From NCBI GenBank assembly GCA_039024915.1, contig JBCCPK010000002.1, forward strand, positions 186,001-250,000: a DNA stretch of 64,000 nucleotides, written 5' to 3'. Shown here piece after piece: positions 32,665 to 42,730 of the stretch. Numbering within the stretch: the stretch's first letter is position 1; every line of letters starts with the position of its first letter. The DNA is from Pseudomonadota bacterium. GTDB taxonomy: Bacteria; Pseudomonadota; Alphaproteobacteria; Rhizobiales; MH13. The notes under the pieces are model-generated. The model was not told the DNA's origin. It ran no database searches and saw only the letters and a program-made list of their open reading frames with translations. Made by a program: the position numbers and the translations under genes.

Positions 32665-32970
32665 ATGCGATTTCCAAGTATACTGAACGGTGAGAGCTTT
32701 GATGTCGGCTGTACGGTCGATGTTCAAAACACGTTCGACAGTTTGCACGCCTATGTCGAGCTGGACGGTGACATTGCCATCCATCCGGGCGACGAGGTGA
32801 TCGTACACGGGAACCCAGTCGAGGTTCCCTATGGCGAGCACCAGGTATTCCGACGCCAGGCAACCGTACGTCGCGCCGGTTGGCTCGAACGCACGTGGAT
32901 CCGGCTCACGGGCGATATGGAGTTCATGGAACTCTGCGAGTTCTCCTTCTCAGAGGAGGCAACACTATGA
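32665..32970 (+). CDS. Conserved small PGC protein before acsF
   Basis: A 101-aa soluble protein with no signal peptide or membrane segment. It has an SH3/OB-like look ([21 protein letters not shown] then [19 protein letters not shown]) and an acidic C-terminus ([14 protein letters not shown]). It starts after GGAAGGAGG (about 32646-32656). Its stop overlaps the acsF ATG (ATGA). A small orf of similar size often precedes acsF in proteobacterial clusters; its role is unknown, but coupling to acsF suggests a cyclase partner. Confidence 0.8.
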
Positions 32971-36912: not shown

Positions 36913-37443
36913 ATGTCGCAGATCATCATTCCGGCGATTGACGAAGACGGGTCGGTTTTTCCGATCGAGAAGATGGAGGCGCACCGCCAAGGCCAGTTGC
37001 ACCTTGCCCTTTCGGTCTTCGTGTTCAGCCCAGATGGTCGTTTGCTTGTGCAACAGCGCGCATGGTCAAAGTACCACTGTGGTGGGCAGTGGGCGAACAC
37101 GTGTTGCAGCCATCCGCACTGGAATGAGGACCTACCAACGGCCGCAGCTCGGAGGCTACACGAAGAGCTGGGCTTCAGCGTACCGCTGACCCCGGTCGGC
37201 TCTCTGATCTACAAGGCCGATGTTGGTGGGGGACTGACCGAGCATGAACACGTGCATTTGTTCCGCGGCACAGCAAATCCACAAGAGCTGACCGTTAGGC
37301 TGGAGCCGTCGGAAGTTGAGGCCGTCGCCTGGCAATCCATCCCGGATCTTGCAGAGATGGCAGACAACAATCCCGAAGCGATCACGCCATGGTTCCGTAT
37401 TTATCTACGGGAGCGGTCCGATATGTGGGTTCCAGCGGCTTAG
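36913..37443 (+). CDS. idi: Isopentenyl-diphosphate delta-isomerase, type 1
   Basis: A 176-aa Nudix-fold enzyme that interconverts isopentenyl and dimethylallyl diphosphate for carotenoid and phytyl synthesis. The active-site Cys is in WANTCCSHPHWNE, the Nudix-like stretch AARRLHEELGF follows, and the Glu region is EHEHVHLFRG. It stands alone between hemA and puhA with intergenic gaps of 482 and 210 bp on either side. Its place inside the cluster ties prenyl supply to pigment genes. Confidence 0.95.
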   Translation: MSQIIIPAIDEDGSVFPIEKMEAHRQGQLHLALSVFVFSPDGRLLVQQRAWSKYHCGGQWANTCCSHPHWNEDLPTAAARRLHEELGFSVPLTPVGSLIYKADVGGGLTEHEHVHLFRGTANPQELTVRLEPSEVEAVAWQSIPDLAEMADNNPEAITPWFRIYLRERSDMWVPAA

Positions 37444-37653: not shown

Positions 37654-38454
37654 ATGGATTTCTCCGACTTTGATTTCGTGAACTTTGGGCCCTACGTGGA
37701 TCTCGCTCAGATCCTTCTGTATCTGTTCTGGGCATTTTTCGCTTACCTCTTGTTTTACATACAAAAAGAAACAAGGCGGGAAGGCTATCCGCTTGAGTCT
37801 GACGAGACCGGCGCCGTGGTCAATCATGGTGTGATCTACATGCCAGACGCAAAGGTTTTTAAGCTGCCCCATGGCCACGGAGATGTGGCCCTGCCCGATT
37901 ACAAACGCGAATCGCGCAAGCTGAATTTGGAGCCATCAGAGCCATGGTCCGGAGCTCCCAAAGACCCAACGGGATCCAACCCAATGCTCGACGGCGTTGG
38001 ACCGGGCGCATGGGCGGAGCGCGCGGACGTTCCCGATCAGATGTGGAGCGGCGAGGTCAAGATCAAACCAATGCGCGTTGCGGACGTCTACGCCATTCCG
38101 TCCGGTGACCCCAATCCCATTGGAGGAGAGGTTAAGGGCTGTGACGATGCTGTCGGCGGCACGGTTGTCGATGTTTGGGTCGATAAAGCGGAGAGCGTGA
38201 TTCGCTACTACGAGATCAAGGTTTCCGACGATCCCAAGGTTCGCACGGTCTTGATGCCGGCAAACTTTGCGGTCGTTCGCACAAAGCCGGAAACGCATCT
38301 GTATGTGGACGCAATCACAGGCTCCCAGTTTGCGGATGTACCGCTGACCAAAGACCCCGAGACCATCACCATGCTCGAGGAAGAGAAGATCATGGGATAT
38401 TACGGTGCAGGCTTCTTCTACGCCATGCCTGATCGAGCCAATCCACTTGTCTAG
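37654..38454 (+). CDS. puhA: Reaction centre H subunit PuhA
   Basis: The 266-aa H subunit caps the cytoplasmic side of the reaction centre and guides proton uptake to QB. One N-terminal membrane helix (YVDLAQILLYLFWAFFAYLLFYIQKETRREGYP) is followed by the soluble PRC-barrel domain with GTVVDVWVDKAESVIRYYEI and PETITMLEEEKIMGYYGAGFFYA. In most relatives puhA follows lhaA; here it sits after idi, 28 bp before the fused puhB-puhC gene. Confidence 0.96.
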   Translation: MDFSDFDFVNFGPYVDLAQILLYLFWAFFAYLLFYIQKETRREGYPLESDETGAVVNHGVIYMPDAKVFKLPHGHGDVALPDYKRESRKLNLEPSEPWSGAPKDPTGSNPMLDGVGPGAWAERADVPDQMWSGEVKIKPMRVADVYAIPSGDPNPIGGEVKGCDDAVGGTVVDVWVDKAESVIRYYEIKVSDDPKVRTVLMPANFAVVRTKPETHLYVDAITGSQFADVPLTKDPETITMLEEEKIMGYYGAGFFYAMPDRANPLV

Positions 38455-38481: not shown

Positions 38482-39633
38482 TTGAACTACATATACAATG
38501 ACGATGATTTCGCCACCGAGCCGAAGCGCGGGCTACCTGCGCTTTTGCCTCGGGGCGAGTTTATTCTTTGGCAAGGCGGGCCAAACTGGCGCATGTTCGC
38601 TCGGCAGGCCTACAGGACCCATCTGATTGGAACAGCCGTGCTCGCAGGGGCGCTGACGCAAGGTGCTGCTGCGCTGGCGTCCGGTCAATCCATTGGTTTG
38701 GCAGCGGGCCAATCGGCGGTCATTGTCGCGTTCGGACTGGTCGGGCTGGCGATCCTGTACGGCATTGCCAAGCTCGTCGAAAAGACCACCGTCTATACGA
38801 TAACAAACCGCCGAATTGTTCTGCGGGTTGGCGTTGCTATCCAAAAGACCTTCAGCATCCCCTTCGCGCAGATAGACGGTGCCCAGGTTAATATGCATGG
38901 CAGAGGTGGCTTTGGCAGCATCTGCGTGCAGTTCAAGCCAGGCGTGTCGATTGCCTATCTTATTCTGTGGCCGCATGCGCGACCCTGGCGTCTCGGGCGC
39001 ACGGAACCCATGCTCCGGGCCATCCCACAAGCTGAAAAAACGGCGATGCTTTTGGGCGAAGCTCTGCGTGCGTTTGTCGAGCAGGAAGAGGCGAACACCG
39101 TCCGAAGCGCGACGGCACTTTCAGCGAATTCAAAAGGGGCGCTTGGGAGCGAGATGGGACCCGATGCACAAAACAAGCGCCTTCCCCCGCTCGCGCCGAG
39201 CAAGCCCTATGTCGGGCGCCGCCCCGCAATGCTCGCATTCGGTGTTGCGATCGCCGCGTTGCTGTTCGTTGGTATTCATTCCCTCCTTGGCGACCCGGTT
39301 CGGTCCATTGAGAGCATTCAGCCGTCCTTTCAACAGTCCATCGTCTTCACCGAGAATACCGATCAGACCATTGCTATCATCGACCCAGTATCGGGGCAGA
39401 CCCTGACCACCATGCCGGCACAAGGTGAAGGCTTACTGCGCGCGGCGATCCGAGGATTGGGCAGAAGCAGGACTGCGATCGGAGCAGAATTGGCAGAGCC
39501 TTACGAACTTCGCAGATTGCCCAACGACGGCATGTATCTGTTCGACCCCCAGACAGGCCGCGACATCAGGCTTGATTCCTTCGGCCCCACTCAAACCGGC
39601 GCCTTAGCCGACCTGCTCGCATTGGGGCTTTAA
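38482..39633 (+). CDS. PuhB-PuhC fusion, photosynthetic complex assembly
   Basis: A 383-aa protein joining two normally separate assembly factors. Residues 1-203 are PuhB: two membrane helices (about 47-67 and 77-97) and a PH-like domain with TTVYTITNRRIVLRVGVAI, IDGAQVNMHGRG and GSICVQF. A polar linker (204-247) leads to a third helix (249-268, MLAFGVAIAALLFVGIHSLL) and a PuhC-like domain (269-383) with LLRAAIRGLGRSR, YELRRLPNDGMYLFDPQTGRDI and SFGPTQTGALADLLA. No separate puhC occurs in the window. PuhB and PuhC help build the reaction centre-LH1 complex. The frame is open throughout with no sign of stop or frameshift. Confidence 0.85.
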   Translation: MNYIYNDDDFATEPKRGLPALLPRGEFILWQGGPNWRMFARQAYRTHLIGTAVLAGALTQGAAALASGQSIGLAAGQSAVIVAFGLVGLAILYGIAKLVEKTTVYTITNRRIVLRVGVAIQKTFSIPFAQIDGAQVNMHGRGGFGSICVQFKPGVSIAYLILWPHARPWRLGRTEPMLRAIPQAEKTAMLLGEALRAFVEQEEANTVRSATALSANSKGALGSEMGPDAQNKRLPPLAPSKPYVGRRPAMLAFGVAIAALLFVGIHSLLGDPVRSIESIQPSFQQSIVFTENTDQTIAIIDPVSGQTLTTMPAQGEGLLRAAIRGLGRSRTAIGAELAEPYELRRLPNDGMYLFDPQTGRDIRLDSFGPTQTGALADLLALGL

Positions 39634-40589
39634 GCGCTCTGCAAGACCACAGGAAATAGGCGCACCGTATGTGCCTATGTGCCTATGTGCCTATGGACTG
39701 TAACCGGATCCGGCACAGGAACGGTGGGCTACGGCACAGCAGCCATGTGCACCCCAACTAAAGGGCTGTGGAGCAACGTGACGCTCCCCTGCGGCACGTA
39801 CGTAAAAAAGCGTGCAAGGGCGCTGGTACCCGATCGAAGAAGAGCGAAGCCTCTCAAGCAGAGTTGTAGGCTTTTGACCGAGACCGGTTGGCGCAAGGCG
39901 TTGAAAACACGTTGGGCGCGTAAGCGCAGCTGATAGGCGGAGATTGGGTCGGTTCGTTTTCTCAGGCGATTAGCCGGAGAGGAAAAACAGCCCTGCTCGG
40001 CACCGCAGCGCCGTCTCCGCTTGTACGATGAGCTCAAGGTAAGAAACATCAAAAAATTGGCGGCTCCATGAGCCCTCGGCAAACTCACGATACAACCGAC
40101 CAGCCAGGAAGTCGTACCAAGCACTAAGTACGCAGGCATCATCGCGCTTCAGATCCTGAACCGCTCGCACGTCAGCTACGAAACACCGTAACAAAAGACG
40201 TTCGGCCGTTAGTCGCCACCCCTGTCAAGGGACTGCAGCTAAGGTTTAGTCGCAGACCAAACCCAAGCGACCGCGACCAATTCCGCGTCGCTCACAGGCG
40301 CGTCGTTCATTTCTTTATCAACCGCTAGGGCAACAGACCGGGCAGAAGGTCAGCGAAATCTATACCGTGACATGCTCCTATCACCCGTCATCCGGCAATC
40401 AGGAGATTGTTGCGGGTGGAACCTGCCATTTGTCTGGCAAGTAATGTGATCCCTCCAGCCCTGCCGGCAACGCCCGGAAGCGCTATGGCCGGAAGGCCTG
40501 GCAGAACTTTGGTCGATCACGAGGCAAAATGACAGCTACGGATACGTAACGCTCGAACGCGTTTCACGATCTCATCATTGAAAATGTAA
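39634..40589. other. Gene-free stretch between puhB-puhC and the puf terminator
   Basis: About 950 bp lie between two convergent transcription units. I see no gene I can support. Short frames on both strands (for example 39970-40194 minus) lack ribosome sites and recognisable features. A plus-strand frame ending at 40444 reads like the tail of a Cys-containing protein (TVTCSYHPSSGNQEIVAGGT) but has no start, so it may be a decayed remnant. A short tandem repeat lies at the left end. Confidence 0.5.
39668..39691. repeat. Three tandem copies of an 8-bp unit
   Basis: TATGTGCC is repeated three times without change, followed by a partial TATG. It lies 35 bp after the end of the puhB-puhC gene. 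No function is implied; replication slippage is the simplest origin. Confidence 0.85.
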
Positions 40590-40617
40590 ACGGCGCCGGT
40601 CTCTCGACCGGCGCCGT
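40590..40617 (-). terminator. Rho-independent terminator of the puf operon
   Basis: A perfect 12-bp stem (ACGGCGCCGGTC with GACCGGCGCCGT) around a four-base loop lies 36 bp after the pufM stop. On the minus strand it is followed by TTTACATTTTC, a T-rich tail. It should end the bchCXYZ-pufQBALM transcript. Confidence 0.9.
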
Positions 40618-40653
40618 CCCAGCACCACATCCCTTCAAGGCAACGTTTGCGGG

Positions 40654-41628
40654 CTAATTGCCCCAACTGGATGTGGTGGAGTCGGGCGTGATGGGCCACC
40701 ACGACAAATCTACAGGCACGACACCGTGCTTCATCGCCCAGATCGTCCAATCATCAACGACAGGGCCCGTGATCAGAATGCCGATCCCACCGGTTAAAGT
40801 GGTCAGCATGGCAAACCACCACGCCCACCGGTGAACCGATTCCATTGACGCGTTGAAACCCATGGTCCAGCGCCAGAACAGTGCAGCACGCTCAGAAGCA
40901 GTACCGCGATCGGTGATCTGCTCGATTTCGCGTTCGCCACCGTAGCGCGTTACCGCCAGGATCGTTGCTCCATGCATGGCGAACAGGAGAGCCGAACCGT
41001 ACAGAAACACAATCGACAGCATGTGGAATGGGTTCCAGAAGAGGTTCCCCCAAGCGAGCGAGAAGTTGTTGGTCCAGTCGAGGTGTGGAAACACCCCGTA
41101 AGGGACGGCCTCGCTCCAGCTTCCCATCGCGATTGGGCGGAAAAACCCAAGAACGAGGAAGAGCCAAATCGCAGCCGCGAAGGCGTAGCAAACATGCAGC
41201 CCAAGACCGAGTTTCTTCGCTCTACGGTACATCCGAACCCACCAGAGCAGGATCGAGGTCGTCAGGAAGAAGCCGGCAATCAGGAACCAACCGCCTTCGC
41301 GCAGCGGTGGGAAGGACAGGCCGTACTCTGGCGAGGGGGGGTCAAGTGATAGCCAAAGGAACTCCCGAACGAACAGATACGGGTTCCAGTTGACATCCAT
41401 CGCCATGCTGAAACCCATGATCGTAAAGCTGATCATAAAGGTGATGATCGACGCGACCCCCAGAAAGCCGAGGTAGATGGGTCCAAGCTGAGCGTTACCG
41501 ATCTTTCCGATCCAGTAGCTGAGCATGCCCCCCTTACGCTCGAATTCCATGTCATCATCGATGGCAATTCCCGGCTCGGGATGACCCATGACCTGCACGC
41601 GGGTGAAGATGTTTTGATAGTTGTTCAT
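40654..41628 (-). CDS. pufM: Reaction centre M subunit PufM
   Basis: A 324-aa membrane protein with five transmembrane helices that binds the pigments and the QA quinone. Recognisable stretches are [42 protein letters not shown] (with His ligands to the special pair and Fe) and [22 protein letters not shown]. It starts at 41628 after AGGAG, 9 bp past pufL. The gene is followed by the terminator; no pufC or pufX follows. Confidence 0.97.
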
Positions 41629-41637
41629 GATCTTCTC

Positions 41638-42477
41638 CTACTGCGGGCCTGGGCCGCCCCAGTTCATGGTTTCGCGAATGAACTCCCACCAATCGATCCA
41701 AGAACCGGCATAAATCGGTCCAGAAATGATGATGCAGATCGCGCTCCAGAAGCCGGCGTTCAGCGCCAGGAAAAGTCCAAGACGGTGGATACCGAGCGTG
41801 CCGATGGAATAGCCGATGGTATCGCGGAAATAAGTATCCTCATGCTCCGGAGATTTAACGGTCTCACCGCGCTGAGGATTGGTCGCCGACAGCACCATCC
41901 CACCGTGCAACGCAAGCGCAAAAGTGGTCGTGAAGAAGAACGTGATCGCGACCATATGCGCGGGGTTGTAGTGGAAATTCCCATACTGGTAGCCAGTGAA
42001 CCAAACCCAGTTGAGGTGGCTCATGATCCCGTAGGGAAAGCCATGACCCCATGCACCAAGCATGAACGGCCGAATGATGTTGAGCGATGCGAAGGCGAAG
42101 ATCGCGACCGAAAAAGCGAACGGCACATGGTAGCCCATGCCCAGCTTGCGGCAGATCTCAACTTCTCGGAGCGCCCAGGACGCAAACGCCCCAAAACCGC
42201 AGATGGTGATGATTTGCCAGAATCCGCCTTCGGACATCGGGGCAAAACCAAGACCGTAGCTGATGTCGGGCGGATCGATCGACAGCATCCAGATGTTCCA
42301 CGTCGGACCTTGGGATGCGTCGAATATGATCAACGCGGTCCCCAGGATCACGAAGAACATCGTCGTTACGCCGAAGAAACCAACGTAAAACGGGCCAACC
42401 CAAAAATCGAACAGATTGCCGCCGATGAGCGTGCCGCCACGGACGCGGTACTTTCGCTCGAAGCTGAGCAAAGCCAT
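41638..42477 (-). CDS. pufL: Reaction centre L subunit PufL
   Basis: A 279-aa five-helix subunit binding the QB quinone. It begins [35 protein letters not shown] and contains [29 protein letters not shown] 42477 follows an excellent AAGGAGG; the frame open to 42495 crosses that ribosome site. It is separated from pufA by a 253-bp intercistronic region. Confidence 0.97.
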
Positions 42478-42730
42478 AGTAACCTCCTTAGCCAAGCGGG
42501 CATCTGACCGCCATCCCCGCGGGGAAGACCTGCCCTTTGCGCGGCCGCTTTAAGCGATCACCATCCGGCCCGGCTCGCGGGTGCTCTGGTGCCTTAGCTG
42601 CTAAACAATGTTGCGTGCGAGCGGGGGGCATGCCGGTTCTCAGACAGGCAGTCCAGGCTTTGCGAGACGCCCGACCAATCGGCCGATGCCCTCCACATCG
42701 CGTTGTTGCGTTTACTGGCGAGCCGCCGCA
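42478..42730 (-). promoter_or_regulatory. pufA-pufL intercistronic region
   Basis: A 253-bp non-coding gap inside the puf operon. It includes the palindrome CCCCGCGGGG near the pufL side and several GC-rich inverted repeats. In Rhodobacter the equivalent segment forms hairpins that stabilise the pufBA mRNA so antenna peptides outnumber reaction centre subunits; the same role is inferred here. Confidence 0.5.

Follow-up and report, generated by a model that had tools for sequence, protein, structure and literature searches.

In the window (the whole 64,000-nucleotide stretch of DNA analysed here), a single frame on the forward strand at 38482..39633 runs uninterrupted from a TTG start to a TAA stop over 383 codons. 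We call this gene puhBC. In purple bacteria puhB and puhC are as a rule separate genes, the products of which help to build the reaction centre (RC). The TTG start is common to all four genomes of the window's genus, with GAGG or GGAG upstream and the residues NYI(H/Y)N directly after it.

The frame contains two domains joined by a linker. We found that residues 8-183 (38503..39030) match the PuhB family NF040894 (NCBIfam) over model positions 2-176 of 176 (178.1 bits, E 1e-52, cut-off 110). This half combines two membrane helices with a bacterial PH-like domain, the latter matched at residues 102-185 by bPH_2 (Pfam PF03703; 28.5 bits, cut-off 22). A polar linker follows at about residues 204-243 (39091..39210); its length differs among fused genes and it is always in frame. 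Residues 245-379 (39214..39618), which comprise a single membrane helix and a putatively periplasmic domain, match the PuhC family TIGR03054 (NCBIfam) over model positions 2-137 of 138 (89 bits, E 3e-25, cut-off 55). For both NF040894 and TIGR03054, which are families of equivalog type, the cut-offs are curated. When the two halves are searched singly, each matches its family above the cut-off with a slightly higher score than within the whole protein, and the C-terminal half alone reaches 92.5 bits for PuhC. These scores bear out an initial annotation of this DNA, which had described one 383-codon frame with a PuhB-type part (residues 1-203), a linker and a PuhC-type part (residues 240-383), and had named missing PuhC similarity in the latter as evidence against a fusion. 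The gene at 38482-39633 is a true PuhB-PuhC gene fusion.

Compared with the known families, the first half is a PuhB in its whole-model match, its two helices with a PH-like domain and its position next to puhA, but the protein runs on into PuhC without a stop and has a TTG start in the window's genus. Likewise, the second half resembles PuhC in matching nearly the whole model and in its one predicted membrane helix, but lacks a conserved start codon, and the cytoplasmic tail of PuhC now lies within the linker. Whereas puhC is usually a separate gene downstream of puhB, the two are here in the same frame with neither a stop nor a conserved internal start between them.

Hydropathy peaks at residues 48-66, 78-96 and 251-269 lie close to the two PuhB helices and the third helix (249-268) described in the initial annotation. 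A marginal fourth peak (1.41) inside the PH domain was not counted as a helix. The loop between the PuhB helices contains no K/R, residues 97-250 contain 21, and in the acidic PuhC domain 9 K/R stand against 14 D/E. Under the positive-inside rule this charge pattern gives a cytoplasmic PuhB tail and linker and a periplasmic PuhC domain. From hydropathy and charge we thus infer three membrane crossings, with the PH-like domain and the linker probably cytoplasmic and the PuhC domain probably periplasmic. This is the orientation expected of separate PuhB and PuhC, so that joining them would require no change of topology. A structure model built from the single sequence was too poor for use (mean pLDDT 42), and a search of solved structures returned only weak matches, to designed proteins that are unrelated judging by their names.

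The photosynthesis cluster in the window includes pufLM, bchYZ, acsF and lhaA. Directly upstream of puhBC, across a 27-base gap, lies puhA for the RC H subunit (37654..38454, forward strand), recognised by similarity across all loci. It is preceded on the same strand by a gene (36913..37443) which, by similarity, we take to be idi-like. On the opposite strand pufM (40654..41628) faces puhBC and is followed by pufL (41638..42495). The overall order is lhaA, then hyp-acsF-puhE-hemA-idi, then puhA-puhBC facing pufML. The hyp gene (32665..32970, forward strand) and acsF normally come after puhC; in the window both stand directly after lhaA because puhABC has moved away.

In PMC3176799, published clusters read bchFNBHLM-lhaA-puhABC-hyp-acsF-puhE. 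All genes of the canonical block (lhaA-puhA-puhB-puhC-hyp-acsF-puhE-hemA) are found in the window, but puhA-puhBC has its place behind hemA and idi, facing pufLM, and puhB and puhC are one gene.

The fusion is not confined to the window, as a survey of other photosynthesis clusters, suggested by the initial annotation, revealed it in six further genomes. About 1,200 genomes were covered (397 from the order, 385 from the class and 398 from the phylum, plus the whole families of three carriers). PuhB is present in about 116 of them (tally across surveys), amongst which 7 carry the fusion: the window's genus with all four of its genomes, plus G064 (family f14), G261 (family f18) and G720 (family f67, in another order), that is, four genera, four families and two orders. 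The other fused proteins are 32-51% identical to the window protein. G261 is a draft of 550 contigs, and binning may have put it wrongly into f18; the fusion itself is unaffected.

Fetched loci were read directly, and around 40 genomes of the order were judged from the match table alone; there, "separate" stands for PuhB and PuhC matches whose open frames differ in length or that have a stop between them. Several candidates turned out to have separate genes. For example, G075, G072, G107 and G056, for which only PuhB was reported, have separate puhB and puhC at the fetched loci; in G027, also reported with PuhB only, the locus sits at a contig end. Two loci from Erythrobacter and Altererythrobacter (L006, L007) seemed full-length and consist of separate genes. 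Plasmid-borne clusters gave 11 matching records; the two matches reaching PuhC (Novosphingobium, Thiodictyon) are annotated as separate genes. We found puhB and puhC adjoining in nearly all genomes that carry them, and in 26 of 73 separate loci they share a frame with one stop between them. We dropped the idea of an enrichment of such in-frame neighbours, as this proportion is close to the third expected by chance and retrieval favours in-frame loci.

In most clusters puhA sits apart from pufLM. The displaced block recurs with the fusion: idi-puhA-puhBC faces pufLM in the congeners and in G064, as does puhA-puhBC in G720. At the G261 locus (L099, 9692-13704), pufL-pufM-puhA-puhBC lie on one strand, bringing the genes of the L, M and H subunits together. 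Neither lhaA nor acsF was found beside the fused locus in any of the seven cases. Nearly all unfused loci retain the canonical order; lhaA is present at every separate locus except L046, which is truncated close to the end of its contig, and L036. The latter (G102, contig 1, near 3858040) is a second, very divergent unfused puhA-puhB-puhC without lhaA or acsF beside it. It forms a long branch that is not near the fused clade, and G102 also carries a canonical puhABC set; L036 could have arisen by duplication or represent a cluster acquired in addition.

The three congeners keep the same open frame over its full length, with no stop, at 48-51% identity to the window protein, and the fusion was also read directly in the more distant G064, G261 and G720. 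Although the window's own genome is a draft of 35 contigs, the same fusion in seven genomes without stop or frameshift excludes that two genes were joined by an error in sequencing or assembly, a danger the initial annotation had pointed out. The initial annotation had also seen no other puhC, and this extends beyond the window: when the window's own genome, which is 97.6% complete, was searched with the PuhC family, no match other than puhBC exceeded the cut-off. In the six other fusion genomes, the fused gene is likewise the only PuhC above the cut-off, with remaining matches at 15 bits or less.

Next, we asked how the seven fused loci are related. They form one clade in trees of PuhA, of PuhB, of PuhC and of all three joined, built with the linker left out (FastTree support 0.97-1.0). 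The clade is also found by IQ-TREE under a mixture model (SH-aLRT 100) and in a PuhA-only tree (support 99). Because PuhA, which is outside the fusion, gives the same clade, the grouping is not an artefact of the fusion. One fusion event explains all seven loci and, judging by these gene trees, the fusion arose once. Their spread over four families and two orders could speak for several independent fusions, but a single, strongly supported clade that unfused PuhA recovers as well makes this very improbable. Given the single clade, fusion and displacement are best described as one shared history and not as seven independent coincidences.

Other members of the same host families fall elsewhere in the puh trees. 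Holding a fused locus with its host family is rejected for G720 (p value = 5.5e-9), for G064 (AU p value = 7e-47) and for G261 (AU p value = 2e-5). Given this rejection, the puh genes were probably transferred between families. The rest of the photosynthesis cluster probably moved along with them, as extrapolated from three genes and not from the whole cluster.

A fused frame can still give two products, the full-length PuhBC and a free PuhC from an internal start. In the window, an ATG codon preceded by GGAG occurs at residue 225 and could start such a short PuhC. This codon is not conserved, and the GTG with GAGG in the linker of the congener G003 is in a different place. Across the window, the three congeners, G064, G261 and G720, we found no conserved PuhC start codon with a ribosome-binding site in the linker, and we consider a second product from the same frame unlikely. 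The fused protein could also be cleaved after translation. The initial annotation had read a natural fusion as a sign that PuhB and PuhC act in one complex with 1:1 stoichiometry. Within the fused clade this stands if the product is uncleaved, since there is no conserved internal start from which additional PuhC could be made; where the genes are separate, in more than 100 genomes, the fusion offers a hint only.

PuhB and PuhC are known as assembly factors. Work by Aklujkar, Prince and Beatty in Rhodobacter capsulatus reportedly found that reaction centre assembly depends on PuhB and RC-LH1 accumulation on PuhC.

Taken as a whole, the data are in our judgement very probably best explained by a true fusion of single origin that has been kept and transferred and that provides a tethered 1:1 assembly factor for RC/LH1. 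Neighbouring puhB and puhC would have become one gene when the stop codon separating them was lost, and in the same lineage puhA-puhB-puhC also moved out of its place between lhaA and acsF. The fused gene would then have been kept and have spread among families by transfer of the puh genes, with the photosynthesis cluster probably moving along. PuhBC would act as the two separate factors do, one unit at a fixed 1:1 ratio serving both faces of the membrane, the cytoplasmic one with the H subunit and the periplasmic one. Most likely, then, PuhBC is a covalently tethered assembly factor of fixed 1:1 composition, one molecule doing both jobs, a prediction from sequence that presumes an uncleaved product. 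The tether may confer an advantage.

Nonetheless, the fusion might be neutral: loss of a stop joined two neighbours that tolerate the tether and have no functional link beyond co-expression. Adjoining genes, often in frame with one stop, make this an easy accident, and with the PuhB end and the PuhC start both cytoplasmic the tether would be topologically harmless. Moreover, the fusion occurred only once in our set. Against this, all seven members of the clade have kept it despite deep divergence (32-51% identity to the window protein) and different host families, and the frame has been maintained through a linker of changing length. We regard neutrality as a serious contender, somewhat short of an even chance. 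It concerns why the fusion persists and does not conflict with the fusion being real.

The fusion of the two factors is thus conserved, of single origin and found in an uncommon type of photosynthesis cluster. We found no report of a PuhB-PuhC fusion in open-access full texts, where these genes appear in cluster surveys and genome reports; a mention in subscription journals is possible. That a fusion of single origin has persisted while its carriers diverged deeply hints at a shared site of action for PuhB and PuhC and suggests that they work side by side. More tentatively, PuhB and PuhC may in all purple bacteria be the two halves of one trans-membrane 1:1 assembly machine, made permanent in the fused lineage along with the move of RC-H and its assembly genes beside the RC-L/M genes. 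PuhBC also offers a single protein to purify or tag for catching assembly intermediates, and the fusion marks a distinct type of photosynthesis cluster that has apparently moved between families.

Finally, the roughly 1 kb between puhBC and pufM (39634-40653) contains no frame conserved in the congeners beyond the gene ends. Several terminator-like sites are found in this region, more than in shuffled sequences, which suits two converging operons. Just 3′ of puhBC, at 39668-39695, lies a short tandem repeat of TATGTGCC in 3.5 perfect copies.
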